Source: Collimonas antrihumi (GTDB taxonomy: Bacteria > Pseudomonadota > Gammaproteobacteria > Burkholderiales > Burkholderiaceae_D). Taken from it: DNA of 64,000 nt. The stretch covers positions 496,001 through 560,000 of the forward strand of contig NZ_JAGQED010000001.1 in assembly GCF_018304965.1 (NCBI RefSeq), read 5' to 3'. Of the stretch, positions 8,033 through 62,628 are shown in pieces. The position numbers were made by a program, and so were the translations under genes. The first letter of the stretch is position 1; each line of letters starts with the position of its first letter. Below the pieces are notes generated by a model. The model searched no databases, was not told where the DNA came from, and was given only the letters and a program-made list of their open reading frames with translations.

Positions 8033-8070
8033 TCACAACTCAATCACAACCCGTCACAACCCGTCACAAC
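8033..8070. repeat. 10-bp tandem repeat carrying the stop codon of the PLD gene
   Basis: TCACAAC is iterated at 8033, 8044, 8054 and 8064 with 10-11 bases between copies. Read on the reverse strand each copy contains TTGTGA. The copy at 8064-8066 is the actual stop codon of the phospholipase-D-like gene. The three further TGA copies follow downstream in changing reading frames because the period is not a multiple of three. The array sits in the short gap where hutG and the PLD gene converge. Confidence 0.8.
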
Positions 8071-9428
8071 CAATAACCGAGCGAGCGCGCGGCCCATTCC
8101 TTGACACGATCCGAAAATGGCCGGTGCTGCCATTGCTCTAGCGTGATTTGCTTGGAGCCGCGGATGTCTTCGCGGAAGGCTCTTTCCATTTGATGGCCAA
8201 ACTGGTCGTCGATGACAATCACGTTGGCTTCATAGTTGTGGAGAAAGCTGCGGATATCCATGTTGGCGGAGCCGACGGTAGACCAGCTGCCGTCGATTAC
8301 CGCGGTTTTGGCGTGCAGCACCGCGATCTGCAGTTGGTAAATGCGGACCCCGGCGCTCAGCAGCTGCGTATAAAACGATTGCCCGGCATGGTACATCAGG
8401 CCGACATCGGACACCCCGGGCAAGATGATGGTGACATCCACCCCGCGCTTCGCGGCGGCGACCAATGCGTCCACCAGCTGGCGGTCGGGGGTGAAGTAGG
8501 GCGTGGTGATGTGGATGCTTTTGCGGGCTTGCTGGATCGCCAGGATATAGGCTTTGTACAGGCTGTAGTCGCTGTCGGGCTGGCTGCTCAGCACATGTAC
8601 CGTCTTGTTGCCGGCTTCTGCCAGTTTCGGGAAATAATTCAGGTCTGGTAAATCTTCTGTAAATTGCGTACCCCAGGTTTGCATGAACAGTAATTGCAAG
8701 GAAGCGACGGCAGGGCCTTCTATTTGCACATGGGTATCGCGCCAACCTATGGCGCTGGCGCCGGTATTGGGGCGGCGGCTGGCGCGAAACAGCGAGCTGT
8801 TGGCATAAGCTGCGCTGATGTTGACGCCGCCGGTGAAGCCGATCTTGCCGTCCACCACCAGGATTTTGCGATGATCGCGATGATTCCATTGCCAGCGGCC
8901 AAAGCGTTTAAGCGGATTGACCGGATTGAATTCGATCAGCCTGATCCCGGCCGCATGCATGCGCTCAAAAAATTCGCTGGGAGTGCCGATGCTGCCGACA
9001 CTGTCGTAAATGATGTTGACCTGCACTCCGCTACGTTGCTTTTCTATCAGCAAATCCGCAAACTGCAGGCCGAGCTGGTCCTGGTCGAAAATATAGGTTT
9101 CAAAATTAATCGTGCTTTTGGCTTGCCTGATGGCTGCAATCATTGCAGTCAAGGTCTCCGGCCCGTCGAACAGCAAGGTCACCTTGTTGCCTTTGACTAG
9201 CGGGCTGCCGGTAGCCGCTGCTTCCATTGCCGCCATGTTGTCGAGCCTGGATGCGGCACCGTCCTGACCATTGCTCTGGCCGTTGCCGGTTGCGGCTACC
9301 TGCAACACCGACTCGCTCAAATGGCTGACGTCGGGCAAAGTCGAGCAGGCTGCTGTCAAGATGCACAGCAGCGCCACGACGTACCGTAGAAAATAATCAC
9401 GTAGCTGAGCGTTCAACATGTTTTCCAT
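8064..9428 (-). CDS. Phospholipase D / cardiolipin synthase-like lipoprotein
   Basis: The protein has two HKD motifs, HRKILVVD near residue 186 and HAKTAVID near residue 372. It therefore belongs to the PLD superfamily that moves or hydrolyses phosphatidyl groups. Length and spacing resemble cardiolipin synthases of the ClsB/ClsC type. The N-terminus is a hydrophobic segment ending in LTAAC, a lipobox with Cys28, so it is predicted to be a lipoprotein in the periplasm, unlike typical Cls proteins. The start is uncertain: ATG 9428 or 9419 gives a clean signal sequence, while a TTG at 9488 would lengthen it. The substrate is not deducible. Confidence 0.82.
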   Translation of the reverse strand: MENMLNAQLRDYFLRYVVALLCILTAACSTLPDVSHLSESVLQVAATGNGQSNGQDGAASRLDNMAAMEAAATGSPLVKGNKVTLLFDGPETLTAMIAAIRQAKSTINFETYIFDQDQLGLQFADLLIEKQRSGVQVNIIYDSVGSIGTPSEFFERMHAAGIRLIEFNPVNPLKRFGRWQWNHRDHRKILVVDGKIGFTGGVNISAAYANSSLFRASRRPNTGASAIGWRDTHVQIEGPAVASLQLLFMQTWGTQFTEDLPDLNYFPKLAEAGNKTVHVLSSQPDSDYSLYKAYILAIQQARKSIHITTPYFTPDRQLVDALVAAAKRGVDVTIILPGVSDVGLMYHAGQSFYTQLLSAGVRIYQLQIAVLHAKTAVIDGSWSTVGSANMDIRSFLHNYEANVIVIDDQFGHQMERAFREDIRGSKQITLEQWQHRPFSDRVKEWAARSLGYWL

Positions 9429-9492
9429 CGTGCGCCGATCGGCTTTAGTGTTTTGTACGTTGTTTGCAGTACGTCTTTTAGCACCCAAACAC

Positions 9493-11625
9493 CTAAACAG
9501 TAGGCTTGTCCTGTTCCAGCGGAGCGACTCTCTTGGGCGGGATGAAAAAATCCTTGGGGCCGCTCCTGAAACGTGTGAAGACCGCCCTGGCCAACGTCAG
9601 TCCATGCCGGAACCGGATCTGGCGCGCCCGCATGGCCACGAACAAGGCCAGTGAAAAGCTGACCCAAAGATTGATCGTGCCGATCCCCAGCACGCCAATG
9701 ACAGAGACCACCGCTGTATGCCAGCCCATCTGATTGTCCAGGCCGACCAGGGCAGTAGCAAAGTTGGTGGCCGAAAACGTAATGTGGCGGATGTCGATAG
9801 GCAAGCCGAGCATGAAACCTATCGTGCCTATCGTACCGAGCAATATGCCGAAGTAGAAATTACCCATCAGGCCGCCCAGGTTGCGTTCAACGTATTCGCC
9901 GAACCGGTTCAGCCGTTCCTGGCCCAGCAGCTTGCGCAGCCAGTGCGCGCGCGCCACGCGTTGCCCGATGTGGGTGTAGAGCGCCTTGTTGTCGTAGTAG
10001 CCAGAGATCAGGCCGGCCAAGAACAGGCAAACGCCGGCAATCGCCGCATGGAACAGCGCCAGGCTGGCGAACGGATCGATATCGTGCAACAGGTGCGCTG
10101 CCTTGTCGGGTGATACCAGATGATGGCCGGACAAGGTGTGATAAGCGAGGGCGATCAGGTAGGCTACCGGAAACGCCAGCAGCAAATTGCCGGCCACGGC
10201 GATAAATTGCGTGCGTATCACTTTGACGATCAGTTCCACCAGGCTGTCGAGATCGATATTGCGGCCGTCGCGGCTTTGCAGGCCGGAAGCGATGCGCGAT
10301 GCGGTCATCGCCGGTTGCTTGGTGGCGACCGTGAAATGCAGCACATGGATCAGCATGAAGCCAAACGAATAATTCATGCTGAATAAAAACGCCTCCACCA
10401 GCGGCGCGGCGCGCAGATAAGACGCCAGTATTTTTATCAACGACATGAAGCCGATGATCAGCCCGGCGCCGGAAGCGGAGCGGAACATCGCGCCGTATTC
10501 CTGGCGGTCTTCAGCAATATAGTGTTCGCCGGTACGACTGGCGTTTTCGGTGACATTGCGTGCCAGCAGATTGATATTGTCGGCGAATAGTTCGCGCACG
10601 GCATATTTGCGGTTATGCCCTTCGATCAGTTCCTGGCCTAGCGCCAACGCCTGAGTGCGTTTGACGAGTTGACTGACATCTGCCGTGCTTTGATCCGGCG
10701 CATCTTCAGCAGCTTCGGCCCTGGTTTCGCCGACATCGACAAGGCTCAGCAGCTTGCGCAGCCGCGTGATGCTTTGCTCCAGCCTGACCAACAGATAGGT
10801 CAGGGAAACGCTGCTACCCATACGCAAGGCGTTTTTACGGATTTTGAGGACAATGGTCTCGCATTGGTCCAGCATCACCGCCAGGTGACGGGCATCTTCC
10901 AGTGGCGGTAACTCGCCTGGTAACTGGCTCAGGCCGGCTGCCGACTCGCTCGCTGCCAGGTGGCGGCGATAGCTGTTCAGGTACAGGTGCAGCTCGACGT
11001 TTTGCATCAGGAACGGCGATTCGAATTCGTCGATGCTGGGGTAAAGCCTAAGCAGCGCGGGCTCCAGTCCCATCGCGCTGATGCGATAGGATAGTGTCTG
11101 GATCGCTTCCAGCAATTCGCCCACTGTTTTATGGCGATCGATGGCATCGCTGGCGGCGTTGGCGGCGTTGTTCTCGGCGTCGGCGTAGGGAGCCGCCTGG
11201 CTTAGCAAGTCATACAGGCTCAGCCAGTCTGCGGCCGGCACTGCGTTGATCCACAGATAATCGGATTCAACCGGCAACAGGCGGTCAAGGCAGTCGCGTA
11301 AATAATTTTCATCCAGCGCCGGCGGCAAGATGCGAAATGACAGGCGTTGAAAAAGTTCGGTGAAAAAGCCGGCGTTCGGCAAGATGCCGGTATCGGTATA
11401 CAAACTGATCTGGCGGCGCGTCGAAAACAGACGCAGCACGTAATGACGCAGGGCGCTGGCCTGGGCCGGCTCGCCATGCAGCAATTGCACCAACACTCGC
11501 ACGTTCTCGGCTGCCTGCTCGCCTTGCTCCGGTTTGGCGGGGCGCAAGGTCTTTATCAAGGCCACCAAGTGGTCGATATTGTCGGAGTTCGGATCGGCAG
11601 TGATGAGTTTCAGTGTTGACAGCAT
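9493..11625 (-). CDS. Membrane protein of the Gcr 'site-specific recombinase' family (COG4389-like)
   Basis: This 710-residue protein resembles the family annotated in beta-proteobacteria as site-specific recombinase (Gcr). The N-terminal half is a soluble helical region. From about residue 380 to 680 there are several hydrophobic helices, for example around AGLIIGFMSLIKILASYL, NLLLAFPVAYLIALAYH and FYFGILLGTIGTIGFMLGL. I see no tyrosine-recombinase R-H-R-Y set and no serine-recombinase catalytic motif. The recombinase name is therefore doubtful and an integral membrane role is more likely. Start chosen at ATG 11625; an open frame extends to 11814. It lies 64 bases upstream of the PLD gene on the same strand. 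Confidence 0.7.
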   Translation of the reverse strand: MLSTLKLITADPNSDNIDHLVALIKTLRPAKPEQGEQAAENVRVLVQLLHGEPAQASALRHYVLRLFSTRRQISLYTDTGILPNAGFFTELFQRLSFRILPPALDENYLRDCLDRLLPVESDYLWINAVPAADWLSLYDLLSQAAPYADAENNAANAASDAIDRHKTVGELLEAIQTLSYRISAMGLEPALLRLYPSIDEFESPFLMQNVELHLYLNSYRRHLAASESAAGLSQLPGELPPLEDARHLAVMLDQCETIVLKIRKNALRMGSSVSLTYLLVRLEQSITRLRKLLSLVDVGETRAEAAEDAPDQSTADVSQLVKRTQALALGQELIEGHNRKYAVRELFADNINLLARNVTENASRTGEHYIAEDRQEYGAMFRSASGAGLIIGFMSLIKILASYLRAAPLVEAFLFSMNYSFGFMLIHVLHFTVATKQPAMTASRIASGLQSRDGRNIDLDSLVELIVKVIRTQFIAVAGNLLLAFPVAYLIALAYHTLSGHHLVSPDKAAHLLHDIDPFASLALFHAAIAGVCLFLAGLISGYYDNKALYTHIGQRVARAHWLRKLLGQERLNRFGEYVERNLGGLMGNFYFGILLGTIGTIGFMLGLPIDIRHITFSATNFATALVGLDNQMGWHTAVVSVIGVLGIGTINLWVSFSLALFVAMRARQIRFRHGLTLARAVFTRFRSGPKDFFIPPKRVAPLEQDKPTV

Positions 11626-11731
11626 GTAAATTTTTATAAAATGCAAAGTAGATAGTGTACGTTTAGTTGAGCGAAACGGGTTGTGGATGAACGAATGAAT
11701 GTTATGTTTCGCGTTGTCATAGAAAGAATCC

Positions 11732-12325
11732 ATGAAATTCTCAAAATCTCTGTACTTGGGCAGATTCCTGACCTGCTGGTTCCTGCTGTTTATCCTGGCG
11801 GCTTGCCAAAGCATGCCGTCAACGCCTGGTGTCCAGTGCGGTCCCTCTGCTGCGGACGCCGGGCAGATCGATCAGTTGCTGACGCTGATCGATCTGCGCC
11901 TGGCAGTTGCGCCGATGGTGGCCAAAGCGAAATGGAACTCCGGTGCCGCCATCAACGATCCGCCACGTGAGCAACTGATACTGGACGCTGTCACTGCTCA
12001 GGCTGAAGGCTTGGATGCGACTTTTGTACGACGTTTCTTCCAGGCCCAGTTCGACGCCAGTAAAGCCCTGCAGCTAGGTTTGCATGCGCAATGGCGTCGA
12101 CAGGGCGCCGGCAGTTTCAGCGATGCTCCGGATCTGGGGCGAGATGTGCGGCCGGTGCTGGACCGGTTGACGCCGCAATTGATCGCTGTGCTAGGCAAGA
12201 TTCAACCGTTGCTGGCCCAGCCTGGCATGCCGGCCTATATCGACATGCGCTCGCGGCTTTTGGTACGCGGCGATCTGGACGGTTTGCCGCGCCGGGTGGC
12301 GCTGCAGGGGTGGATGGGGAATTAG
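11732..12325 (+). CDS. Exported chorismate mutase (AroQ-gamma type), predicted lipoprotein
   Basis: Chorismate mutase converts chorismate to prephenate. After the signal the helical AroQ pattern is visible: IDLRL (active-site Arg), VAKAKW (Lys), INDPPREQLIL (Asp/Arg/Glu cluster), then RRFFQAQFDASKALQ with a Gln. This order fits the secreted gamma class. The N-terminus, CWFLLFILAAC, ends in a lipobox, so the enzyme should be anchored in the envelope rather than released. ATG 11732 has GAAAG upstream. There is no aro or tyr gene nearby. The role of extracytoplasmic chorismate mutases is unsettled. Confidence 0.78.
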   Translation: MKFSKSLYLGRFLTCWFLLFILAACQSMPSTPGVQCGPSAADAGQIDQLLTLIDLRLAVAPMVAKAKWNSGAAINDPPREQLILDAVTAQAEGLDATFVRRFFQAQFDASKALQLGLHAQWRRQGAGSFSDAPDLGRDVRPVLDRLTPQLIAVLGKIQPLLAQPGMPAYIDMRSRLLVRGDLDGLPRRVALQGWMGN

Positions 12326-12336
12326 TCCTGTCATGG

Positions 12337-13452: not shown

Positions 13453-13468
13453 GGGCTGGAATGATCCA

Positions 13469-14101
13469 CTAGCAATGCGCCCAGAACCTTCTGGTTTGCA
13501 GCTCGTCTCGTTCGCGCTGCATGCGGTCGCGGATATGCGGTGGCTGCCGGCGGTGGCCCATATAGTTAAGCCATTCAAGGCGCCGTCCAAGTGCCACGCA
13601 ATCGACGCCGGCCTCGGTGGTGACGGTGGTGATGGCCGGTTCGATAACGGTGCCTGATGGCGCAGCCTGGGCTAGCTGCGGCGGCGGTTGGCGTAGCGTG
13701 CGTTCGATCGTCGCCTGGTCGACGCCGGGGATGATGGCGTTGTCGGTAATCTGCACAGGTTTGGCTTTGCTGCCTTGAGGGCAGCCCTTGTCGGTATAGA
13801 CGATCTTGCCGTCGATGGTGCATTTGGCAATGACGCCGACGTTCTCAAGCAATGGCCGGCTGGCCCCGGTCGATGGCGCCGGTTGTGGCGGATCGCTCGC
13901 TGCCAATGTCGGCGTGACGGGCGTGGCGGACGTGGACGATGCGGGATTTGCCGCGAACGGCGCAGCGTTGGCGGTTTTTGCAGGACTGTCAGGATGCTGG
14001 CTGTTACCGCCATTGAGTGAATGGTCGATAGCATACAGAGCGCCGCTGGCCAGCGCGATGGCCAGGAAGAACGCGCCAAAAATCCGGATCGCAGCGGGCA
14101 T
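13469..14101 (-). CDS. DUF4124-like membrane-anchored protein
   Basis: I do not recognise a function. The 210-residue product has an N-terminal hydrophobic helix (IFGAFFLAIALASGALYAI). An Ala/Pro/Ser/Thr-rich linker runs from about residue 35 to 90. Then comes a short domain with KCTIDGKIVYTDKGCPQGSKA, which matches the DUF4124 pattern (two Cys flanking Y-T-D), and a C-terminal charged helix. It is likely tethered to the inner membrane and faces the periplasm. ATG 14101 is chosen over a TTG at 14113. The downstream patatin-like gene starts 16 bases after its stop. Confidence 0.7.
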   Translation of the reverse strand: MPAAIRIFGAFFLAIALASGALYAIDHSLNGGNSQHPDSPAKTANAAPFAANPASSTSATPVTPTLAASDPPQPAPSTGASRPLLENVGVIAKCTIDGKIVYTDKGCPQGSKAKPVQITDNAIIPGVDQATIERTLRQPPPQLAQAAPSGTVIEPAITTVTTEAGVDCVALGRRLEWLNYMGHRRQPPHIRDRMQRERDELQTRRFWAHC

Positions 14102-33385: not shown

Positions 33386-34660
33386 TTACCGGTGAGCCAG
33401 GGCGATGTCGGGAACTGCTGCTTCCGGCTTGACTGAAATCGTCAATGCAACAGCGGCCAATAAGCCCCCCGCCATGAACAGATAGGATGCAAACGGGCTG
33501 CCGGTTGCGCCATTCAGATAGCCAACCACATAAGAGCCGAGGAAAGAACCGAGTGCCCCCATGCTATTGATCAAGGCCATCGCGCCGCCGGCGACATTCT
33601 TAGGCAACAACTCGGGAATGATGGCAAAGAAAGGACCGTAGGGCGCATACATTGCGGCGCCAGCAATCACCAGCAGGGTGTAGGACAGCCAAAAATTGCT
33701 GCTGCCGAGTAAATAGGAACCGAGGAAAGCCAGGGCGCCAATCAGCAATGCCGGCCAGACGAATAATTTACGGTTTTGCATTTTGTCGGAAGCCCATGAA
33801 GTCAGCAGCATGGCAATCACGGCGACAAGATAGGGTAAAGCCGACAGCCAGCCGGTTTGCACCATGTTGATATGCCCGGCATTTTTCAAGATGGAAGGTA
33901 ACCACAGCACAAAACCGTACACACCGATGCTCCAGCAAAAATACTGGGCGCACAGTTTGACCACGGCCGGCGACTTGAAGGCTTCGGCATGATTACGCAT
34001 CGGCTTCATGCCAACCTGCTCCAGATCGAGCACCGCTTTGAGATCGGCCTTTTCTTGCGGTTTCAGCCAGGTCGATTCCGCCGGTTTGTCCTGGACCACG
34101 AACCACCAGATACACGCCCACACTATCGCCGGCAATCCTTCGGCAATCATCATGTTGCGCCAGCCGAAACTGTTAACCAGATAGCCCGACAGCACGGACA
34201 TCCACAACACGGTGACCGGATTACCTAAAATCAAAAACGTGTTGGCGCGGGAACGTTCGGTTTTGGTGAACCAGTTGCTGATGTAGATCAGCATTGCCGG
34301 CATCACCGCGGCTTCCACCACTCCGAGCGAGAAGCGAATCACCATCAGCATCGGGATATTGCTGACCATACCGGTCAGTGCGGCGCAAGCACCCCACAGC
34401 ACCAGGCTCCAGAAAATCAATTTTTTGACGCTGCGGCGTTCGGCGTAGATGGCGCCGGGAATCTGAAAGAAGAAATAGCCGAGAAAGAAAAGGGCGCCGA
34501 TCAATGAAGAGGTGCCTTGGGTAATACCCAGGTCATGATTGATGCCGGCCGCACTGGCAAAGCCGAAGTTGGCGCGGTCGAGATAGGCCAGGCTGTAGGT
34601 AATAAAAACGATCGGCATGATGAACCACCAGCGCCGGACTGCTAATTTTTTTGTTTCCAT
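33386..34660 (-). CDS. kguT: 2-ketogluconate transporter (MFS, anion:cation symporter family)
   Basis: The 424-residue protein has twelve hydrophobic segments typical of the major facilitator superfamily. The N-terminal RRWWFIMPIVFITYSLAYLDRANFGFASAAG is characteristic of the anion:cation symporter (ACS) subfamily that includes KguT and glucarate/phthalate carriers. AAGGAGA precedes the ATG at 34660. In Pseudomonas KguT imports 2-ketogluconate made in the periplasm. The substrate here is inferred from the operon: kguK is upstream and kguD 27 bases downstream. Confidence 0.9.
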   Translation of the reverse strand: METKKLAVRRWWFIMPIVFITYSLAYLDRANFGFASAAGINHDLGITQGTSSLIGALFFLGYFFFQIPGAIYAERRSVKKLIFWSLVLWGACAALTGMVSNIPMLMVIRFSLGVVEAAVMPAMLIYISNWFTKTERSRANTFLILGNPVTVLWMSVLSGYLVNSFGWRNMMIAEGLPAIVWACIWWFVVQDKPAESTWLKPQEKADLKAVLDLEQVGMKPMRNHAEAFKSPAVVKLCAQYFCWSIGVYGFVLWLPSILKNAGHINMVQTGWLSALPYLVAVIAMLLTSWASDKMQNRKLFVWPALLIGALAFLGSYLLGSSNFWLSYTLLVIAGAAMYAPYGPFFAIIPELLPKNVAGGAMALINSMGALGSFLGSYVVGYLNGATGSPFASYLFMAGGLLAAVALTISVKPEAAVPDIALAHR

Positions 34661-34769
34661 GTTGTGTCTCCTTAGATTTTTTCGCATTTTCAGGTTTGTA
34701 CCTGTATTGTTTTTAGCGACTTTGCTTGTTTGACTGCTTTTTGCTTAATTGCTATCTGCTTAATTGCGA

Positions 34770-34802
34770 CTTATTTGCGACTTATTTGCGACTTATTTGT
34801 GA
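34770..34802. repeat. 11-bp tandem repeat carrying the kguK stop codon
   Basis: CTTATTTGCGA is repeated at 34770 and 34781, and as CTTATTTGTGA at 34792. On the reverse strand each unit contains TAA; the copy at 34793-34795 is the kguK stop codon. Further TAA-containing degenerate units (GCTTAATTG) continue to about 34743. The 11-bp period moves the copied stop through the reading frames. Confidence 0.8.
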
Positions 34803-35767
34803 CTTAACTGTTCTCTGGTCGGCAATCCTTCACTATCGCCGATTACCTGGATTGCCATTGCACCGATTCGATTGCCGCGCTCGACTGCCAAACGAGGCTC
34901 ATGTCCATCCAGCAATGCGCTGATCACGCCGACCGCGAAACCGTCGCCGGCGCCGACGGTGTCGACCACGTTTGTCACCAGCGGCGCCGGGACGGTGGCT
35001 TCATGTTCTGCGGTGCGCAAATAGGCGCCTGCGCTACCCAGTTTGATGATGATGCCAAGCGCGCCACGCGCCAGGTAGAAATCGGCAATCTCGCGCGGTG
35101 TCGTCAAGCCGGTCAGGATCCGCCCTTCTTCCAGGCCCGGCAGCACCCAGTCGGCATACGACGCCAAGGCATTGAGCCGGTCCACCATCAGTTCACGTGA
35201 GCGCCATAGCGTCGGCCGCAAGTTGGGATCGAATGTAATGCTCTTGCCGGCTGCGCGCATTTCGGTAGCGATATGGAAAGCCAGCTCCAGCGACGATTCG
35301 GAAATCGCCGGCGCGACACCGGACAAATGCAGGTGGCGTGCGGACTTGAAATATTCTGGCCGGTAGTCTGCGATCGACAAGTGGCTGGCCGCAGAGCCTT
35401 TGCGGAAGTATTCGATTTCCGGATCGCTGCCATCGTCATTGCGCGATTTCAGCTGGAAGGCGGTGGGGTAGCGCTCGTCGATTGTTACGGCGTCGCTATT
35501 GATGCCTTCGTTCGCCAGAGTTTCCAGTACGAAGCGGCCAAACGAATCCTGGCCGACACGACTCATCCAACCAACTTGAAACCCCAGGCGCGCCAAGCCG
35601 GTTGCGACGTTGAGTTCGGCACCCGCGGCGCGTTTGATAAAATTTTTGGCCTTGGCAAGGTCGCCTGTTTCGGTGGCGACAAACATCGTCATGGCTTCGC
35701 CGTAAGTCACCACATCCAGCTTTTTCATTTCAGCCGGTTCGCTTGAGGGCAGTGCTGTTATTGGCAT
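34793..35767 (-). CDS. kguK: 2-ketogluconate kinase (PfkB/ribokinase family)
   Basis: KguK phosphorylates 2-ketogluconate with ATP at C6. The 324-residue product belongs to the PfkB family: KRAAGAELNVATGLARLG in the N-terminal half, WRSRELMVDRLNAL in the middle, and the catalytic NVVDTVGAGDGFAVGV with its Asp base. The ATG at 35767 has AGGAG at good distance, although it overlaps the end of kguE by ten bases; an internal ATG at 35728 has no ribosome site. The overlap implies coupling. The sequence alone is also close to 2-keto-3-deoxygluconate kinases; the operon favours KguK. Confidence 0.88.
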   Translation of the reverse strand: MPITALPSSEPAEMKKLDVVTYGEAMTMFVATETGDLAKAKNFIKRAAGAELNVATGLARLGFQVGWMSRVGQDSFGRFVLETLANEGINSDAVTIDERYPTAFQLKSRNDDGSDPEIEYFRKGSAASHLSIADYRPEYFKSARHLHLSGVAPAISESSLELAFHIATEMRAAGKSITFDPNLRPTLWRSRELMVDRLNALASYADWVLPGLEEGRILTGLTTPREIADFYLARGALGIIIKLGSAGAYLRTAEHEATVPAPLVTNVVDTVGAGDGFAVGVISALLDGHEPRLAVERGNRIGAMAIQVIGDSEGLPTREQLSHK

Positions 35768-36576
35768 GCATTTACTCCTGCAACTGCTGCAATTGCCGCA
35801 ATTGCGGCCGATGTTGGCTTGCACGCCGAACGCAAGCGTTCCACATGCGCTGCCTGTGCCTCTTCGCCTGCAGGCAGCGGATATTCAATTGCTCGCGGCA
35901 CATGGCCGGGTAACTTTGACAGGCAGGCAAGCCAGTCGGCGCTTCCTTCGTCGGGCGCCACCGCAAAACGGCGCATGCCTTCGCCTCGCACTCCCTTGCA
36001 ATGAATATAACGTACGTGTGGAGCAAGCACCGCGGCAGCTTCGATGGCATTCTCGCCGGCCCAACTCCAATTTCCCATATCGAAAGTCATGGCAACCGGG
36101 ATGGCGGGCGCATACGCTTTGCATACGGAAAAAAAGCCGGCGAACTCGGCAATCCGGCTGCCGGTATCTTGCTGCCCATTTTCAAGCAGTAACGTAACTG
36201 GCGAGTCGGCCAAAGCTTGTTGCAGAAGTTGTACATCGACGCCGCCGGGGTAGTGATGCATCTGTAATTTGAGCGTTGCCGCTCCCAGAGTTTCTGCTTC
36301 AGCCAAGCGTGCAATCAAATCCGGCAGATTGAGATTGCCGTCTGGCAGGAACAAGGATTCCGGTGCGGAATACACAGCCTGCAATCCATGTGCAGCCAGT
36401 AGTGGTTTTAGGGCGGCAAGTTCCAGCGCGATTGCATCATCCGGTTGTAAGAATAACTCCCGGCGGATTTCGATGCCATTGGCGTTGGCGCCGGCCGCCA
36501 GGGGAATTAGCGCGGCATGGCCGTTTTTTTGTACAAAATCGACGCCGTAGGCTGAGGCCACGATGAAGATATCCAT
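35758..36576 (-). CDS. kguE: KguE, sugar phosphate isomerase/epimerase-like TIM-barrel protein
   Basis: The 272-residue product belongs to the xylose isomerase-like TIM-barrel superfamily: ANGIEIRRELFL, LKLQMHHYPGG, VTLLLENGQQDTG, VAMTFDMGNWSWAGEN and VRYIHCKGV supply the usual acidic and His metal ligands. KguE is the first gene of 2-ketogluconate operons; its precise reaction is not well established. The start at 36576 follows from homology-like length; an upstream open frame to 36645 would run through the operator. The C-terminal tail is a short Ala/Ile repeat (AAIAAIAAVAG). It overlaps kguK by ten bases. Confidence 0.85.
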   Translation of the reverse strand: MDIFIVASAYGVDFVQKNGHAALIPLAAGANANGIEIRRELFLQPDDAIALELAALKPLLAAHGLQAVYSAPESLFLPDGNLNLPDLIARLAEAETLGAATLKLQMHHYPGGVDVQLLQQALADSPVTLLLENGQQDTGSRIAEFAGFFSVCKAYAPAIPVAMTFDMGNWSWAGENAIEAAAVLAPHVRYIHCKGVRGEGMRRFAVAPDEGSADWLACLSKLPGHVPRAIEYPLPAGEEAQAAHVERLRSACKPTSAAIAAIAAVAGVNACQ

Positions 36577-36630
36577 GGTAGAGGGCAAATCTGTCTCCTG
36601 AATACGACTAGTTTTTGATATTTTTATTAT

Positions 36631-36644
36631 TGGAACCGGTTCCA
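36631..36644. promoter_or_regulatory. PtxS-type operator 1
   Basis: TGGAACCGGTTCCA is a perfect 14-bp palindrome 55 bases before the kguE start. It closely matches the TGAAACCGGTTTCA site bound by the LacI-family repressor PtxS in Pseudomonas. The dyad extends outward as TTAT...ATAA. It is expected to be released when 2-ketogluconate binds PtxS. Confidence 0.82.
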
Positions 36645-36715
36645 TAATAAATTAAAAAAAATGCCGGTAATTTATTAAATGATAGAAAGATTAAGGCAAT
36701 GAAGGCAGAAATCTA

Positions 36716-37797: not shown

Positions 37798-37973
37798 GGA
37801 GAGAACCAGGAAAATGTTAGGAATAGGGTAATGTTGCCCACGCATTATTCCATGCTTGTGTTTGCCGTGACCAGAACCTTTTATTACATTGTGCTGGATG
37901 AGTAACGCAAGTCAAGAGACATGCCGGCGCCGATGCCGCGCAATTTTACTTCGATTTTTTGGAGTGATAAATA

Positions 37974-38013
37974 CATCGTCACGCATCGTCACATTTTGTC
38001 GCACATCGTCACG
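37974..38013. repeat. 10-bp tandem repeat carrying the stop codon of the GntR regulator
   Basis: Four 10-bp units follow one another: CATCGTCACG, CATCGTCACA, TTTTGTCGCA (degenerate) and CATCGTCACG. On the reverse strand the intact units read GTGACGATG. The TGA at 38009-38011 is the regulator's stop codon, and copies follow at 37989 and 37979 in other frames. The array ends in the gap upstream of ptxS. Confidence 0.78.
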
Positions 38014-46336: not shown

Positions 46337-46416
46337 AATGACCGGTGCGGATAGTGCGCTATAGGTGTCAAGTTATAAGTCTTAAGTCTTAAGGGCAGCT
46401 CGAATAATACTGTTGC

Positions 46417-46458
46417 GTCTCGGCGACCCCGTCTCGGCGACCCCAGCTCGGCGCCCCC
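46417..46458. repeat. 14-bp tandem repeat, three copies
   Basis: GTCTCGGCGACCCC is repeated exactly at 46417 and 46431, with a variant AGCTCGGCGCCCCC at 46445. It lies in the gap after the PlpD-like gene, immediately next to the dispersed palindrome at 46457. A small 7-bp repeat (AAGTCTT, twice) at about 46377-46392 precedes it. Confidence 0.7.
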
Positions 46459-46528
46459 GTCCTTCCCGCGAACGCGGGAATCTATTTTAAATCAGCAAAC
46501 TGGATCCCCGCGTTCGCGGGGATGACGG
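46457..46528. repeat. Dispersed palindromic repeat (CCCGCGAACGCGGG type)
   Basis: The left half, CCGTCCTTCCCGCGAACG and on to GGGAATC, and the right half, GGATCCCCGCGTTCGCGG and on to GATGACGG, are inverted copies separated by about 20 bases. Each half also forms its own short hairpin (CCCGCG-AA-CGCGGG; CCCCGCG-TT-CGCGGGG). Elements of this kind are frequent between genes in many proteobacteria. Being between two convergent genes, it may end transcription from both sides. Confidence 0.72.
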
Positions 46529-46545
46529 AGTTTTTAGAGGTCGCC

Positions 46546-48919: not shown

Positions 48920-48976
48920 TTTAACACTCGGTTTAACACTGGGTTTAACACTGGGTTTAACACTGGGTTTAACACT
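48920..48976. repeat. 12-bp tandem repeat, five copies
   Basis: TTTAACACT recurs at 48920, 48932, 48944, 48956 and 48968 with GGG (CGG in the first gap) between copies, a perfect 12-bp period. It lies in the 443-base gap between the MASE1 gene and tRNA-Leu, where I find no supported gene. Read forward it would encode repeats of GFNT in a small open frame, but that frame has no ribosome site and no recognisable product. Confidence 0.8.
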
Positions 48977-49314: not shown

Positions 49315-51780
49315 TTGAGCCAATATTCCTACACAATCCCCAGCCGGGAGGAAATTCTCGGCCTTCTGCGCACCTCTTCCGAGGCGCAAAACGCCGCCGC
49401 TCTAGCCGCCGCGCTAAATGTCAAACCCGATGAAATGGATGGTTTGACGCGCCGCCTGAATGCCATGGAACGCGACGGGCAAATCAAGCCCGACCGCGGC
49501 GGCATCTACAAACTGACCAATTCTCCCGGCTTTATCGAGGGCCGCGTCAGCAGCCATCGTGACGGTTTCGGCTTCCTGATCCCGGACGAGGGCGGCGATG
49601 ACGTTTTCCTGCCCGAAAAGGAAATGCAGAAAGTGCTGCATGGCGACCGGGTACAGGCGCGCATCGTCGGCACTGACCGCCGCGGTCGTCCCGAGGGAAC
49701 GATTGTCGAGGTGGTGTCACGCGCGAATACCCATGTGATCGGCCGTTTGCTCAATGAAAACGGGGTCTGGGTGATCGCGCCCGAAGACAAGCGCATCGGG
49801 CAGGACATTATTTTGGCCGGTTCGCCGGGCAAAGCCAAGGCCGGGCAAGTAGTGAGCGTCCAGCTGACCGAGCAACCTTCGCGCTTTACCCAGCCGGTCG
49901 GCAAGATTGTCGAAATCCTGGGTGATATTGACGATCCGGGCATGGAAATTGAAATTGCGGTGCGCAAATACGGCGTGCCGCACGAGTTTTCCGAAGCCGC
50001 CAAGAAGCTGGCCGCCAAGCTGCCGGGTGAAGTACGTGCTGCCGACCTGGGTGATCGCGTCGATTTGCGCGACGTGCCGCTGGTAACCATCGACGGCGAA
50101 GACGCCCGCGATTTCGACGATGCCGTCTATTGCGAACCGATCAAGATCGGCCGCACCAACGGTTACCGGCTGATTGTGGCGATTGCCGACGTCAGCCATT
50201 ACGTCAAACCTAACGATGCACTGGATGTCGATGCGCTGGAGCGCAGCACTTCGGTATATTTCCCGCGTCGTGTGATTCCGATGTTGCCGGAGAAACTGTC
50301 CAATGGCCTGTGTTCGCTCAATCCCGACGTCGACCGCCTGACGCTGGTGTGCGATGCCGTGATCAGCGCCAAGGGTGAAATCAAGGCTTACCAGTTCTAT
50401 CCCGCGGTGATTCACTCGGCGGCACGCCTGACGTACACCGAAGTGGCGGCCATCCTGGGCAATACCAAGGGCCCGGAAGCAGCCAAGCGTCCCGGCCTGG
50501 TGCCGCACTTGCTGCATCTGTATGAAGTCTTCCATGCATTGCTGCAAGCGCGCCATGCCCGCGGCGCTATCGATTTCGAAACCACTGAAACCTACATCGT
50601 CTGCAATGCCGCCGGCAAGATAGAGAAAATCCTGCCGCGCACCCGCAACGATGCGCATAAGGTGATTGAGGAATGCATGCTGGCGGCCAACGTCTGTGCC
50701 GCCGACCTGATGGAGCGTCATAAGCATCCGGGTCTGTTCCGGATCCATGCGCACCCGACCAAGGAAAAACTGACGATACTGCGCACCTTCCTGAAACAGG
50801 TCGGCCTGACGCTGGCTGGCGGCGATACGCCGTCGGCCTCCGATTATGCCGAGCTGATGCCGAAGATCAAGGCGCGGCCGGATGCCTTGCTGTTGCAAAC
50901 CATGATGTTGCGCTCCATGCAGCAGGCGGTCTATAACCCGGAAAATATCGGCCACTTCGGTTTGTCGTACGAATCGTATGCGCATTTCACCAGCCCGATC
51001 CGGCGCTATCCCGATTTGCTGACGCACCGGACCATCAAGGCGATCCTGCAAGGCAAGCGCTATGATCCGAAAGGCCTGGACACCAGCGCCCTGAACACCA
51101 TGCTGTCGCCGGCCGGCCGCAAGAAGCAGGCGGAAGACAAGGCGGCGGGCAAGAAGAAAAACGAAGGCAGCCTGGCTATCTGGGAAGCACTCGGCGTGCA
51201 TTGTTCCGCCAATGAGCGGCGCGCCGATGAGGCTTCGCGTGATGTCGAAGCGTGGCTCAAGTGTTATTTCATTCGCGACAAATTGGGCGAAGAGTTCACC
51301 GGCGTGATTTCCGGCGTTGCCACGTTCGGTATTTTTGTCCAGCTCGATGCGTTGTACATCGAAGGCCTGGTGCATGTCACCGAGCTTGGCGCGGATTATT
51401 TCCAGTACGACGAAGCGCGCCACGAATTGCGCGGTGAGCGTACCGGTATCCGTTATCAGCTGACTGACCGGGTAACGGTGCAGGTGAGCCGGGTTGATCT
51501 GGACGCACGCAAGATAGATCTGCGCCTGGTCAACGAGCCGGGTATCAAGACCGTACTCAAGAATGAGGCACGGCGTGCCGACAATGAGCAAGCGCGCAGC
51601 GCCAAGCCAAAAGGCGGGGCCAAGGCGGCGCCACCTAAGAAAACCGGCGGCGTCACCACTGCGGCCAGGACCACCAGCCCGAGTAAGGCAAGTAAAGCCA
51701 AGAAGGCCAAGGCGGCAATCGTTCCTGAAAAGACGCGTGCACCGAAGGCGTTCACGAAATCCAGCAAACGTAAAAGATAG
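49315..51780 (+). CDS. rnr: Ribonuclease R
   Basis: RNase R is a processive 3'-5' exonuclease that degrades structured RNA, defective rRNA and stalled mRNAs. The 821-residue product has an N-terminal helix-turn-helix-like domain, cold-shock OB domains (EGRVSSHRDGFGFLIPDEGG), the RNB catalytic domain (GEDARDFDDAVYCE near residues 260-274 with the metal-binding Asp residues, and the late FTSPIRRYPDLLTHR), an S1 domain (GEEFTGVISGVATFGIFVQL) and a Lys-rich tail. The start appears to be TTG 49315: the only in-frame upstream stop is TAA at 49291 and no ATG precedes MSQYSYTIPSREE. rlmB follows after a stop-bearing repeat array. Confidence 0.94.
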   Translation: MSQYSYTIPSREEILGLLRTSSEAQNAAALAAALNVKPDEMDGLTRRLNAMERDGQIKPDRGGIYKLTNSPGFIEGRVSSHRDGFGFLIPDEGGDDVFLPEKEMQKVLHGDRVQARIVGTDRRGRPEGTIVEVVSRANTHVIGRLLNENGVWVIAPEDKRIGQDIILAGSPGKAKAGQVVSVQLTEQPSRFTQPVGKIVEILGDIDDPGMEIEIAVRKYGVPHEFSEAAKKLAAKLPGEVRAADLGDRVDLRDVPLVTIDGEDARDFDDAVYCEPIKIGRTNGYRLIVAIADVSHYVKPNDALDVDALERSTSVYFPRRVIPMLPEKLSNGLCSLNPDVDRLTLVCDAVISAKGEIKAYQFYPAVIHSAARLTYTEVAAILGNTKGPEAAKRPGLVPHLLHLYEVFHALLQARHARGAIDFETTETYIVCNAAGKIEKILPRTRNDAHKVIEECMLAANVCAADLMERHKHPGLFRIHAHPTKEKLTILRTFLKQVGLTLAGGDTPSASDYAELMPKIKARPDALLLQTMMLRSMQQAVYNPENIGHFGLSYESYAHFTSPIRRYPDLLTHRTIKAILQGKRYDPKGLDTSALNTMLSPAGRKKQAEDKAAGKKKNEGSLAIWEALGVHCSANERRADEASRDVEAWLKCYFIRDKLGEEFTGVISGVATFGIFVQLDALYIEGLVHVTELGADYFQYDEARHELRGERTGIRYQLTDRVTVQVSRVDLDARKIDLRLVNEPGIKTVLKNEARRADNEQARSAKPKGGAKAAPPKKTGGVTTAARTTSPSKASKAKKAKAAIVPEKTRAPKAFTKSSKRKR

Positions 51781-51864
51781 GCCTGGTAAAAGATCGTCTT
51801 GCAAAAGATAGACCCTGCAGTAGATAGGCCCTGTAATAGATTGAAGATAGACCCTGATAGATAG
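51776..51864. repeat. 15-16 bp tandem repeat carrying the rnr stop codon
   Basis: GATAG, with a following GGCC/ACCCTG, recurs at 51776, 51807, 51823 and 51846, with degenerate units at 51792 and 51839 and two more GATAG at 51856 and 51860. The TAG in the first copy (51778-51780) is the rnr stop. The array fills the whole gap to rlmB, whose ATG follows three bases after the array. Confidence 0.75.
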
Positions 51865-51867
51865 AAT

Positions 51868-56401: not shown

Positions 56402-56638
56402 CAAAGTTCCTTCTTGTAAGTGGTACCGTGTTCGTATCTCATGTGCTGCATTTTCGGATTTCAGTAATGATATACTGCGGCGAAAAGCAACATTTTATCA
56501 AACTAAGCACTGCAAAAGAGTTTTGGCTATTTAGTTGTACCCGGTTGTTCTGATGTCTCGCACGGTAACAGTGCGGGCAGATGGAACGGCGTGCAATATT
56601 TCTGTGCTTTATTTCTGTGCCCTAAGCCGTAACTTCCC

Positions 56639-58060: not shown

Positions 58061-58064
58061 CCGT

Positions 58065-58715
58065 ATGCAAAAACCGATAGCTGTCGACACCTCCTTTTTT
58101 GTGCCTTCGTATTGGGAGGACGCCAAAGTTGAGTTGATGAAGCGCGACCGCATCATGCGTAAATTGATCCCGCAATTCGGCGACCTGCATCTGGTTGGCC
58201 GCGGCGAAGCGTTTACCACGCTGGCGCGTTCGGTAGTCGGTCAGCAGATTTCCGTCAAGGCAGCGGAATCTGTATGGCAAAAATTTCTGTTAGTCTGTCC
58301 TAAAACCACTCCCGCCCAGGTATTAAAAGCCGGCCCCGAGCAACTTGCTGCTTGCGGTTTGTCTAAGCGTAAAGCAGACTATATTCTTGATCTGGCCGAT
58401 CATTTCAAGGCGAAACGGGTCAATGCCGAGCAGTGGCAGGAGATGGAAGATGAGGCGGTCATCGCGGATTTAACGCAAATTCGCGGCATCGGACGCTGGA
58501 CAGCGGAGATGTTTTTGATATTTAATTTGCTCCGGCCCAATATTTTGCCTTTGGATGACATGGGGTTGCTTAAAGGCATTAGTGTCAATTACTTTTCAGG
58601 AGAGCCGGTTTCGCGTAGCGATGCGCGCGAGGTATCTGCCAACTGGGAGCCGTGGCGCACCGTGGCGACCTGGTATCTATGGCGTAGCCTGGATGCGGTG
58701 TCTGCAGAATATTAA
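58065..58715 (+). CDS. DNA-3-methyladenine glycosylase II family protein
   Basis: The 216-residue product removes alkylated bases from DNA, judging by its helix-hairpin-helix GPD fold. It shows ARSVVGQQISVKAAESVWQKF near the start, the hairpin QIRGIGRWTAEMFLIF at 139-154, and the catalytic Asp (164 or 165) in LPLDDMGLLKG. It lacks the N-terminal domain of E. coli AlkA and is closer to the short form found in many proteobacteria. The start is taken as ATG 58065, four bases after cysS; an open frame reaches back to 57852 within cysS. This suggests coupling with cysS. Confidence 0.92.
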   Translation: MQKPIAVDTSFFVPSYWEDAKVELMKRDRIMRKLIPQFGDLHLVGRGEAFTTLARSVVGQQISVKAAESVWQKFLLVCPKTTPAQVLKAGPEQLAACGLSKRKADYILDLADHFKAKRVNAEQWQEMEDEAVIADLTQIRGIGRWTAEMFLIFNLLRPNILPLDDMGLLKGISVNYFSGEPVSRSDAREVSANWEPWRTVATWYLWRSLDAVSAEY

Positions 58716-58729
58716 GTCATTGTCGGATA

Positions 58730-58770
58730 GTTACTTTAAGTAACTTATTTAAGTAACTTATTTAAGTAAC
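58730..58770. repeat. 13-bp tandem repeat upstream of accA
   Basis: TTATTTAAGTAAC is present twice (58745-58757 and 58758-58770) after a partial copy, and GTTACTTTAAGTAAC at 58730-58744 is itself a palindrome. It lies 15 bases after the alkA stop, whose context TATTAAGT resembles the unit. The TAA content again places stop codons in several frames beyond the gene end. Confidence 0.7.
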
Positions 58771-58805
58771 CTTCTCCGCAGTGACAGTTTAATCAAGGGA
58801 ATAAT

Positions 58806-59780
58806 ATGAGTAAAACAACATTTCTCGGCTTCGAACAACCGATTGCCGAGTTAGACGCCAAGATCGAAGAACTGCGTTTTGTCCAGGACGACTCCGCGGT
58901 AGATATTTCGGAAGAAATCGACCGCTTGTCGAAAAAAAGCCAGCAGTTGACTAAGGATATCTACGCAAAACTGACTCCTTGGCAAGTTTCTCAGATTTCA
59001 CGTCATCCGCAACGCCCATACACCATGGATTATGTGAATGAAATATTCACCGATTTCCATGAGTTGCACGGCGATCGCACTTACGCCGACGACCAGTCGA
59101 TAGTCGGTGGTCTGGCGCGCTTTAACGGCCAGGCTTGCATGGTGATCGGTCACCAAAAAGGGCGCGACACCAAAGAGCGCGCATTGCGTAATTTCGGCAT
59201 GCCTAAGCCGGAAGGTTATCGCAAGGCTCTGCGCCTGATGAAAGTGGCGGAGAAATTCGGCCTGCCGATCTTCACCTTTGTCGATACTCCTGGCGCGTTC
59301 CCTGGCATCGATGCGGAAGAACGCGGGCAGTCGGAAGCTATCGGCCACAATTTGTACGCGATGGCGGAATTGAAAGTGCCGCTGATCGCCACTATCATCG
59401 GCGAAGGCGGTTCCGGTGGCGCCTTGGCGATTGCGGTCGGCGATGCAGTCCTGATGCTGCAGTACGCAACTTATTCGGTGATTTCACCTGAAGGTTGTGC
59501 CTCGATCCTGTGGAAAACCGCTGAGCGCGCATCCGATGCGGCCGATGCTCTGGGCCTGACCGCGCATCGCTTGAAAGCAGTCGGCCTGATCGACAAGATC
59601 GTCAGCGAACCGTTGGGCGGCGCCCATCGCGATCCGAAGCAGATGGCTTCCCTGTTGAAGCGCGCACTGGCGGATACCTTGCGCCAGTTCCAAGGTGTCA
59701 AGACCAAGGACCTGTTGAATGCCCGCCATGAAAAACTGATGAGCTACGGTAAATTCAAGGAAGTGCTGGCTGCAGAATAG
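58806..59780 (+). CDS. accA: Acetyl-CoA carboxylase carboxyltransferase subunit alpha
   Basis: AccA, with AccD, transfers the carboxyl group from biotin carboxyl carrier protein to acetyl-CoA, the committed step of fatty-acid synthesis. The 324-residue product has the family pattern: [65 protein letters not shown] and [21 protein letters not shown] precedes the ATG. tilS starts three bases after its stop. Confidence 0.97.
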
Positions 59781-59782
59781 GC

Positions 59783-61240
59783 GTGTCGAATTCATCTACT
59801 ACAAGTATCTGCGCGTACTTGGAAGCTACCCTGGCGGAGATCGCGCAAGCCGCACAAGCGCACTCTGCTGTCGTTCCTGCAACTACCCAAGAGTGGCCCG
59901 CGCGGCTGGCAGTCGCCTATAGCGGCGGGCTGGATTCCAGCGTCCTGCTGCATGCGGCTGCGCACTATGCCAGCACGCGTGGCATCAAACTATTCGCCTT
60001 CCACATCCATCACGGCATCAGTCCCAACGCAGATCAATGGCAAATTCATTGTGCAGAGACTTGCGCAAAGCTGAATGTGCAATTCGATACACGAGGCATC
60101 GAATTGCACAACCGTGACAAGAGCGGTGTGGAAGAGGCGGCCCGCATCAGCCGCTACGCAGCGCTGGGCGATTTGTGCCGCCAGCATCAGGTTCCTTTGC
60201 TGTTGACCGCGCATCATCTGGATGACCAGGCTGAGACGGTGTTGCTGCAATTGTTGCGCGGCTCCGGTGCGGCCGGCTTGTCCGGCATGGATCGCTGGAA
60301 CACGGCGTCGACTTTGCTGGGTGACGCCGAGTTGCTGATGGCGCGGCCGTTGTTGAAAGTGTCGCGTGCAGCATTGGAAGAGTATGTAGAAAAATATGTC
60401 TCAACTCAACAGCTGACGTATATCGAAGACGAATCGAATCACGATCCACGCTATGCCCGCAACGCCTTGCGCCAGCAAGTCATGCCGGTGCTAGCCCAAT
60501 ATTTCCCTGGGTTCCAGGAGCGTTTCTCGCGGAGTTCCGGGCATATGCAGACCACGCAACGATTACTGGTCGATCTGGCGGCGCAAGACATGGCCACCTG
60601 CGCGGATGGCGCATGCCTTGATCTGGAGCACGTGCGCAAGTTGAGCGGCGAGCGGATCGATAATCTGCTGCGCTATTGGTTCGGCTTGCATCATCTGCGC
60701 ATGCCATCCAGCGCCTGGCTGAGTGAAATGCGCCAGCAATTGCTGGAAGCTAAAGCCGATGCGCAATTATGCGTGACACATCCGGATTGCCATATCCGCC
60801 GTCACAGGAACCGCGTGTTCCTGACGCCGCGCGACGATATCGATCGCTCGGAGATCGAGCCGCAAGCGTTTCGCTGGAATGGCGAGGCCGAGTTGCATTT
60901 TCCTGAATTCGGCGGGGTGCTGCATTTTGACCAGGCAGAGCAGGGCATTGCCGCCGACTGGTTACGCGCGCAACCTTTGCAAATTCAATATCGGTCCGGC
61001 GGCGAGCGCCTCAAGCTGGCGTTTAACCGCCCCACAAAAAGCATCAAATATCATTACCAGGCGTTCGACGTGCCGCCCTGGGAGCGTGAACGCCTGCCTT
61101 TGGTGAGCAGTGGCAAGCAGATCCTGTTTGCGGCTGGCATCGGCATGGATTGCGTGCAATTGGCGAGCGGGCCGGGGCCGCATATCAGCCTGCGCTGGCA
61201 AGCCAATGAGATTGCATTTAAGCAAGATATTTTAAGCTGA
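59783..61240 (+). CDS. tilS: tRNA(Ile)-lysidine synthetase
   Basis: TilS attaches lysine to C34 of tRNA-Ile(CAU) so that it reads AUA as isoleucine. The 485-residue product begins with GTG at 59783. It has the P-loop YSGGLDSSVLLHAA (SGGLDS 47-52) and the H-H-H region LTAHHLDDQAETVLLQLLRGSG. It also has substrate-binding and C-terminal domains (QIQYRSGGERLKLAF). It follows accA directly, an arrangement common in beta-proteobacteria. Confidence 0.95.
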   Translation: MSNSSTTSICAYLEATLAEIAQAAQAHSAVVPATTQEWPARLAVAYSGGLDSSVLLHAAAHYASTRGIKLFAFHIHHGISPNADQWQIHCAETCAKLNVQFDTRGIELHNRDKSGVEEAARISRYAALGDLCRQHQVPLLLTAHHLDDQAETVLLQLLRGSGAAGLSGMDRWNTASTLLGDAELLMARPLLKVSRAALEEYVEKYVSTQQLTYIEDESNHDPRYARNALRQQVMPVLAQYFPGFQERFSRSSGHMQTTQRLLVDLAAQDMATCADGACLDLEHVRKLSGERIDNLLRYWFGLHHLRMPSSAWLSEMRQQLLEAKADAQLCVTHPDCHIRRHRNRVFLTPRDDIDRSEIEPQAFRWNGEAELHFPEFGGVLHFDQAEQGIAADWLRAQPLQIQYRSGGERLKLAFNRPTKSIKYHYQAFDVPPWERERLPLVSSGKQILFAAGIGMDCVQLASGPGPHISLRWQANEIAFKQDILS

Positions 61241-61365
61241 GCTGTATCGCTGCCCGTACTTTCTCTCTGGTAAGCCTCTTGTCATAATCGGCCGTTGCGG
61301 GTACAGTAAAGGGTTGATTTTATTTTTTGCACCACACCCGCTTCTAGCACCCACCTACATTCCCT

Positions 61366-62616
61366 ATGGCTTTAATTGTCCACAAATACGGCGGCACTTC
61401 GATGGGCTCACCCGAGCGCATCAAGAATGTCGCCCTGCGCGTCGCCAAATGGCATGACGCCGGCCACCAAATCGTCGTGGTGCCCTCCGCGATGTCCGGT
61501 GAAACCAACCGTCTTCTGGCTCTGGCAAAAGAAATTACCGCCCAGCCCGATCCACGCGAACTCGATATGCTGGCCGCCACCGGCGAGCAGGCATCGGTCG
61601 CCTTGCTGGCCATGGCCTTGCATGCGATAGGCAAGGACGCGGTATCCTACGCGGGCTGGCAAGTCGCCATTGAAACCGACTCGGCCCACACCAAAGCCCG
61701 GATTCGTTCGATTGACGATGGCAAAGTGCGGCAAGACCTGGATGCCGGCAAAGTGGTGATCATCACCGGTTTCCAAGGTGTCGACGACCTGGGCAATATC
61801 ACGACGCTGGGCCGTGGCGGTTCCGATACGTCGGCAGTCGCCGTGGCCGCTGCACTGAAGGCTGCGGAGTGCATGATCTATACCGACGTCGACGGTGTCT
61901 ACACCACCGACCCGCGCGTGGTATCGGATGCGCGCCGCCTGAAGACCGTAACCTTTGAAGAAATGCTGGAGATGGCATCGCTGGGCTCTAAAGTGCTGCA
62001 GATTCGCTCGGTCGAATTTGCCGGCAACTACAAGATGCCAACCCGCGTGCTGTCTTCGCTGACTGACCCATTAATGCCGTTGGAAGAAGAAGCAATTTCC
62101 GGCACCCTGATTTCGTTTGAGGAAGACACCAAGATGGAACAAGCCACCATTACCGGCATCGCGTTTAATCGCGACGAGACCAAGATCACCGTACTCGGCG
62201 TGCCTGACCGTCCCGGCATCGCCTACCAGATTCTCGGCGCAGTCGCCGATGCCAATATCGAAGTCGACATGATTATCCAGAATCAGTCGGTCGATGGCAA
62301 AACCGACTTCACCTTTACCGTACCGCGCGGCGAGTACACCAAGGCGATGGATGTCCTGAACGAGAAGGTCAAAGCGCATATCGGCGCCGCTAGCATCACA
62401 GGCGACGCCAAGGTGTCCAAAGTGTCGGTAGTGGGCGTAGGCATGCGCAGCCATGTCGGCATCGCTTCGCAAATGTTCCGTACCCTGGCGGAAGAGGGCA
62501 TCAATATCCAGATGATTTCGACCTCTGAAATCAAGATTTCGGTGCTGATCGATGAGAAGTACATGGAGCTGGCGGTACGCGCTTTGCATAAGGCTTTTGG
62601 GCTGGAAAGCGCGTAA
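61366..62616 (+). CDS. lysC: Aspartate kinase
   Basis: Aspartokinase phosphorylates aspartate, the first step toward lysine, threonine and methionine. The 416-residue product has VHKYGGTSMGSPERI at the N-terminus, TGFQGVDDLGNITTLGRGGSDTSAVAVA and YTDVDGVYTTDPRVV in the kinase domain. Two C-terminal ACT domains (from about residue 265) bind amino-acid inhibitors. The stop lies in a 10-bp repeat. Confidence 0.96.
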   Translation: MALIVHKYGGTSMGSPERIKNVALRVAKWHDAGHQIVVVPSAMSGETNRLLALAKEITAQPDPRELDMLAATGEQASVALLAMALHAIGKDAVSYAGWQVAIETDSAHTKARIRSIDDGKVRQDLDAGKVVIITGFQGVDDLGNITTLGRGGSDTSAVAVAAALKAAECMIYTDVDGVYTTDPRVVSDARRLKTVTFEEMLEMASLGSKVLQIRSVEFAGNYKMPTRVLSSLTDPLMPLEEEAISGTLISFEEDTKMEQATITGIAFNRDETKITVLGVPDRPGIAYQILGAVADANIEVDMIIQNQSVDGKTDFTFTVPRGEYTKAMDVLNEKVKAHIGAASITGDAKVSKVSVVGVGMRSHVGIASQMFRTLAEEGINIQMISTSEIKISVLIDEKYMELAVRALHKAFGLESA

Positions 62617-62628
62617 TCGCGCTTAATC
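62609..62628. repeat. 10-bp repeat carrying the lysC stop codon
   Basis: GCGCGTAATC (62609-62618) is followed directly by GCGCTTAATC (62619-62628), nine of ten bases alike. The TAA in the first copy (62614-62616) is the lysC stop; the copied TAA at 62624 is in another frame. Confidence 0.6.

Follow-up and report, generated by a model that had tools for sequence, protein, structure and literature searches.

The stretch of DNA analyzed here (the window; G000:C11:496001-560000) comprises 64,000 nucleotides from the genome of a soil bacterium, Collimonas, which totals 4.72 Mb in 83 contigs. By domain, five of its genes encode a PLD-domain protein (PLDc_2), a PfkB-family kinase (kguK), a GntR/FCD regulator, ribonuclease R (rnr), and an aspartokinase-like protein (AA_kinase plus ACT; lysC). 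The original prediction, made from the letters alone, held that the stop codons of all five are embedded in short tandem repeats that extend downstream, through either repeated local slippage at gene ends or selection for back-up stops in more than one frame. We consider it probable (roughly 0.8) that such arrays reflect neutral duplication filtered by selection and not a built-in back-up stop system.

Base-by-base reading and Tandem Repeats Finder (TRF) together located stops within clear arrays at the PLD-domain, kguK, and GntR genes and within a weak one at lysC and placed the rnr stop outside the reported arrays (Table 1). The TGA of the PLD-domain gene is inside the repeat as claimed, but this gene is on the minus strand, and the neighboring plus-strand gene (7204-8028) ends outside the array (stop, 8026-8028). 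The kguK claim was confirmed, while the GntR stop is inside an array that is degenerate. At rnr the 16-bp periodicity is present (identity at lag 16 of 0.50 versus 0.11 to 0.38 for other lags from 8 to 24), but the TRF arrays begin at 51800, downstream of the stop. The lysC repeat is weak, with two copies, but real, since relatives carry one and three copies; E. coli lysC, used as a DNA-similarity query, gave no match. Two suggested weaker cases did not hold up: the repeat near alkA/accA (58730-58770) is an exact array, yet it is stop-free and lies beyond the stop, and the end of kguD gave no TRF array even at a score of 30. The top-scoring TRF array of the window (score, 107) lies at 48920-48976, away from stops, and belongs to the same repeat class.

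Table 1. Tandem repeats of the window and their relation to stop codons
Feature	Position	Strand	Description
10-bp array	8033-8071	-	Holds TGA stop (8064-8066) of PLD-domain gene (8064-9428); TRF 8044-8071, score 56
11-bp array	34759-34806	-	4.4 copies, score 82; holds TAA stop (34793-34795) of PfkB-family kinase gene (kguK)
Degenerate 10-bp array	37973-38013	-	66% matches, score 45; holds TGA stop (38009-38011) of GntR/FCD regulator gene
Degenerate 16-bp repeat	51776-51866	+	rnr-rlmB spacer; rnr stop TAG (51778-51780) touches upstream edge
10-bp duplication	62609-62629	+	2.1 copies, score 35; holds lysC stop TAA (62614-62616)
Exact 13-bp array	58735-58770	.	20 bp downstream of stop at 58715; no stop inside
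12-bp array	48920-48976	.	4.8 copies, 97% matches; divergent gap before rnr, away from any stop
14-bp array	46416-46461	.	3.3 copies; convergent gap 46337-46545; same class, stop-free

The genome carrying the window is designated G000, and labels of the type G001 to G014 denote other Collimonas genomes, 14 of which were searchable besides G000; relatives were compared as one genome per species. Arrays were scanned in 1,220,391 of the 4,722,432 bases of G000, in 788,777 bases of G014, and in 400,000 bases each of G004 and G007. Genes came from a simple custom caller (codon log-odds plus a start and ribosome-binding-site bonus) and not from a curated annotation (n = 994 in G000). Arrays were counted at a TRF score of at least 40 and a period of 7 to 30, and the lysC stop (below the score limit) and the rnr stop (outside the array) are absent from the counts. 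The noncoding null was a single Markov resample of noncoding DNA of the same size.

The predicted excess of tandem repeats at stops over starts and mid-gene points was found in G000. Arrays contained 39 of 994 stops (29/892 when only genes of at least 120 amino acids were considered), compared with 6/994 starts and 2/994 mid-gene points. They lie mostly in noncoding DNA, which held 156 arrays versus 2 in the resample, and those with periods of 8 to 15 reach 6.93 per 10 kb of noncoding DNA versus 0.91 in coding DNA. Noncoding arrays in real versus resampled DNA numbered 48 and 1 in G014, 21 and 1 in G004, and 19 and 5 in G007; head-to-tail copies in noncoding DNA are beyond chance. Stops in arrays numbered 12/666, 3/333, and 4/337 in these three congeners, respectively, with 2, 1, and 4 starts and 4, 1, and 0 mid-gene points. 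In small controls, no stops fell in arrays in four 50-kb stretches (200 kb) of E. coli K-12 (0/164) or in 50 kb each of pSymB (0/39) and pHG1 (0/34). Noncoding arrays of period 8 to 15 are ∼1.8 to 3 times denser in G000 than in the three congeners. Another member of the genus, G010, has a genome of 1.7 Mb yet is listed as 99% complete; its rnr is 90% identical, no match to kguK or the GntR gene was found in it, and it may represent a relative of Collimonas that has been strongly reduced.

The stop codon itself is probably not targeted. Stops in G000 lie in arrays more often than do noncoding triplets in general (3.9% versus 2.64%; p = 0.011), but they show no excess over the following 60 nucleotides (3.9% versus 5.55%) and are, if anything, poorer. 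The same holds for stops versus the next 60 nucleotides in G014 (1.8 versus 2.9%), G004 (0.9 versus 2.5%), and G007 (1.2 versus 1.3%), and in these three congeners neither comparison gave an excess at p < 0.05. Enrichment over random noncoding positions is thus a feature of G000 measured against triplets, fails against the DNA just downstream, and is missing in the congeners. In gaps of 100 bp or more, the 5′ ends of arrays are similarly dense before the stop (11 in the 15 bp from -15 to -1) and after it (31 in the 50 bp from 0 to +49). In 34 of the 39 arrays, the copy in which the stop begins is the first, against 16.4 expected from even placement, as predicted if duplications over the stop are harmless; on average, 6.1 bp of array lie upstream of the stop and 26.0 bp downstream. 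When arrays were placed at random within their own gaps, the start side proved to be avoided (5 observed versus 13.9 expected). With the 20 bp before starts closed to arrays, same-direction gaps held 25 stop-holding arrays versus 22.8 expected (p = 0.28), and convergent gaps in the other three species held 3 versus 2.6, 0 versus 0.9, and 2 versus 1.3 (sum, 5 observed and 4.8 expected).

The arrays also differ between species, and they seem, from sequence comparison, to appear, vanish, and homogenize quickly. Of the 39 G000 genes with stop arrays, 17 have an orthologue in the sampled part of G014; the stop position is unchanged in 14 of these, and the stop lies in an array in only 2, so that conservation in sister species was not borne out. 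By eye, lysC has one copy in G012, G003, and G004, two in G000, and three in G013 and G014 (the G009 contig ends before the site). The PLD array occurs in G000 only among eight species compared by eye, the seven congeners having no array there. The end of kguK has an 11-bp array in G013 too, unlike in sequence, and none was seen by eye in G014, G012, G005, G011, G007, or G006. The C terminus and spacer of the GntR regulator gene vary among relatives, as does the rnr-rlmB spacer among Collimonas species. The C termini of kguK products vary by a few residues among close species (L253, L254, L255, and L256), with the stop in or near the changing array. Two Herbaspirillum records (L006 and L009) have their own TTATTTAGTGA-like repeat in the rnr-rlmB spacer, where Collimonas has an AGATAG-type repeat.

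These observations are accommodated by a model in which head-to-tail duplication of segments of ∼8 to 15 bp would be fairly frequent in G000 and the resulting arrays would then lengthen, shorten, and homogenize. Selection would act as a filter: duplications within a coding frame would be lost unless their length were a multiple of three, and a duplication over a start or a ribosome-binding site would mostly be lost. A duplication spanning a stop would be harmless, as the first copy would still end the gene and extra copies of any length would lie downstream; the protein would be spared, and stops would therefore end up in arrays at about the same frequency as the sequence that follows them. 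The additional stops in other frames would be a side effect. Sometimes an array accompanies a stop that has moved by a few codons, as at kguK and the GntR gene.

Several results weigh against this reading. First, G007 shows no difference between stops and starts (4 versus 4, of 337). Second, placement within own gaps without exclusion on the start side leads to an expectation of 18.9 stop-holding arrays, and 37 were observed (p = 3e-6); a naive null over all noncoding DNA gave, in a smaller sample, 6.5 expected versus 29 observed but was not relied on because long gaps are constrained and gap size is ignored. Third, even with the 20-bp start zone closed, convergent gaps in G000 hold 11 stop-holding arrays versus 6.2 expected (p = 0.009). 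That exclusion is our own choice, 27 of 102 same-direction arrays lie outside the allowed zone, and the model is approximate. Fourth, in the three congeners, periods divisible by three are scarcer in stop arrays (3/18) than in other noncoding arrays (37/76; p = 0.017). Fifth, many insertions of 8 to 15 bp distinguish G000 from G014, yet only 16 of 99 noncoding ones in G000 pass the tandem test at 85%; this comparison (414,577 bp at 90% identity, from the 52 alignments retained out of 61) is of limited use, the alignments being unreliable there between species that are ∼90% identical. Finally, 44 of the 108 exact duplications considered below have at least 4 extra matched end bases and could reflect either an incomplete third copy or an event truly assisted by homology.

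The size of the duplications bears on how they arise. Adjacent noncoding duplications with at least 90% identity, pooled over four species, numbered 60, 51, 54, 28, 24, 10, 1, and 0 for lengths of 10 to 17 bp, respectively, with the 10-bp class including chance matches (3 in 40 kb in E. coli). There is a sharp size limit between 15 and 16 bp (10 versus 1 cases). Among 22 duplications of 18 to 30 bp, 19 are even-length and may be double units. Duplications of 11 to 15 bp reach 5.7 per 10 kb of noncoding DNA in G000, the highest of the four species sampled, versus 1.6 to 2.6 in the three congeners. In other bacteria close to Collimonas, mostly Oxalobacteraceae and sampled at 76 loci around rnr, the same class occurs at lower density, with 15 cases of 11 to 15 bp and 2 of 16 to 21 bp in 117 kb of noncoding DNA, and no adjacent duplications of 11 to 30 bp were found in 40 kb of noncoding E. 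coli DNA.

The rival that survives best is classical slipped-strand mispairing between short direct repeats, which would make the first duplication as well as later changes in copy number and to which we give slightly less than an even chance. Copy number differences and within-species homogenization at lysC and kguK fit slippage once two copies exist, and the 44 duplications with long end matches may count in its favor unless they are partial third copies. The remaining 64 of the 108 exact duplications of 9 to 15 bp have 0 to 3 extra matched end bases in the ratio 34:17:9:4, where chance predicts 55:29:11:4 percent; because these follow the chance distribution, the first duplication step likely needs no microhomology in most cases. 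Nor is the sharp limit at 15 to 16 bp an obvious product of slippage. The original suggestion of slippage at gene ends thus comes close as regards local, repeated duplications, but these are spread over noncoding DNA and are not specific to gene ends, and classical slippage is doubtful as the first step.

Under neutral duplication filtered by selection, the abundance, size range, location, and species difference of the arrays are matters of observation, as is the finding that most two-copy cases lack terminal microhomology; the selective filter is inferred, and the route of the first duplication is a guess. We tentatively suggest that closely spaced nicks on opposite strands, followed by fill-in and rejoining, might be a likelier route than classical slippage, because end matching in two-copy cases is no greater than chance and because a duplex of more than ∼15 bp would stay paired. 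In this scheme, a shorter duplex, of up to ∼15 bp, would come apart, and both ends would be filled and joined. A version of this joining that requires Ku is unlikely because no Ku was found in G000. Ku (PF02735) was detected in 2 of 15 Collimonas genomes (G004 and G005) and not in G000, G014, or G007, and Ku-dependent end joining was rejected as a candidate for G000. It is conceivable, though we would not bet on it, that Collimonas, and the G000 species most of all, has an active process that duplicates segments of 8 to 15 bp without microhomology and with a physical limit near 15 bp, for example, Ku-free nick fill-in.

It is improbable that a gene-end process, such as termination of transcription or translation, provokes duplications just after stops. 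Such a process would account for the distribution of arrays in same-direction gaps in G000: where these measure 120 bp or more, coverage is 4 to 7% in the first 60 nucleotides after stops versus 1.8% mid-gap, and in those of 150 to 400 bp it is 6.0% versus 3.6%. The same pattern is explained by constraint near promoters and starts, however, and convergent gaps, which have a stop at each end, are covered mid-gap at least as highly as near the stops: in G000 gaps of 150 to 400 bp, coverage is 7.1% mid-gap versus 3.2 and 5.9% near the stops (small counts of array centers, 5 mid-gap versus 1 and 2), and in congeners it is 3.9% mid-gap versus 1.7 and 0% at the ends. Divergent gaps also carry arrays (32/164 in G000).

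Selection that keeps arrays at stops as multi-frame back-ups, to catch frameshifted or read-through ribosomes, is less probable still. Genes with stop arrays do close all three frames sooner (within 30 nucleotides in 11/39, versus 5/65 with an array nearby and 36/890 without), but this follows whenever a stop is copied at periods many of which are not divisible by three and needs no selection. The convergent-gap excess in G000 and the congener period bias described above also lean toward back-up stops. In G000 itself, periods of stop arrays modulo three are evenly divided (12:12:12), and the share divisible by three (12/36) matches that of other noncoding arrays (44/129; Fisher p = 1), compared with 89/113 in coding DNA. 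The anticipated shortage of multiples of three thus appeared in the three congeners only and, with all four species pooled, gave 15/54 versus 81/205 (p = 0.12). A possible source of the congener bias is small numbers together with unannotated coding DNA among the other arrays. Nearly half of the congeners' other noncoding arrays (37/76) have periods divisible by three. The absence of an excess over the next 60 nucleotides in any of the four species and the scant sharing between species (2/17 in G014) also stand against back-up stops, for which the proposed selection is mostly unsupported by placement, sharing, and G000 periods. Ho and Hurst (PMC6764699) found no compelling evidence of selected additional in-frame 3′ stops in eubacteria, in an abstract that does not mention arrays.

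Insertion of one mobile or interspersed repeat family at gene ends was rejected as very improbable: no support for it was found, the units of the 39 stop arrays are unrelated by eye, as the original prediction had held for its five, and 33386-36645, which includes the kguK array (the only array so searched), matches its own genome at one other place, over 36 bases with 89% identity in the coding part of kguK and not in the array.

Short tandem repeat or variable-number tandem repeat (VNTR) loci in bacteria, which are minisatellite-like, are head-to-tail, intergenic, and variable in copy number. The Collimonas arrays resemble them in their head-to-tail units, intergenic bias, and copy number variation (one, two, or three at lysC) but differ in having units of ∼8 to 15 bp with a sharp upper edge and in forming many low-copy, unrelated arrays, not a few long ones. 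They share extra other-frame stops downstream of the gene end with fail-safe stops (PMC6764699) and with the ambush hypothesis. The difference is that here such stops would be by-products of duplication, with no sign of selection in G000 by period or local excess and the congener bias as a loose end. Tandem duplications at staggered breaks in mammalian cells (PMC8355091) are likewise short. There, wild-type cells make most of them by end joining, microhomology is commoner via the theta pathway, and formation is largely Ku80 dependent, whereas G000 has no Ku match and its duplications are known from sequence only. A literature search, with most subscription journals outside its scope, returned no description of stop-spanning arrays of 8 to 15 bp in bacteria.

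At stop codons, the repeats are real and their cause is probably ordinary. The idea of back-up stops was tested in G000 and found unnecessary, and harmless duplications easily gather at gene ends. If a process duplicating segments of 8 to 15 bp does operate in Collimonas, it would continually supply new intergenic DNA and shift the ends of genes. Should fresh mutants show the same size limit and lack of microhomology, these features would point to a specific, testable route for short insertions in bacteria, and this species would be a natural high-rate case.

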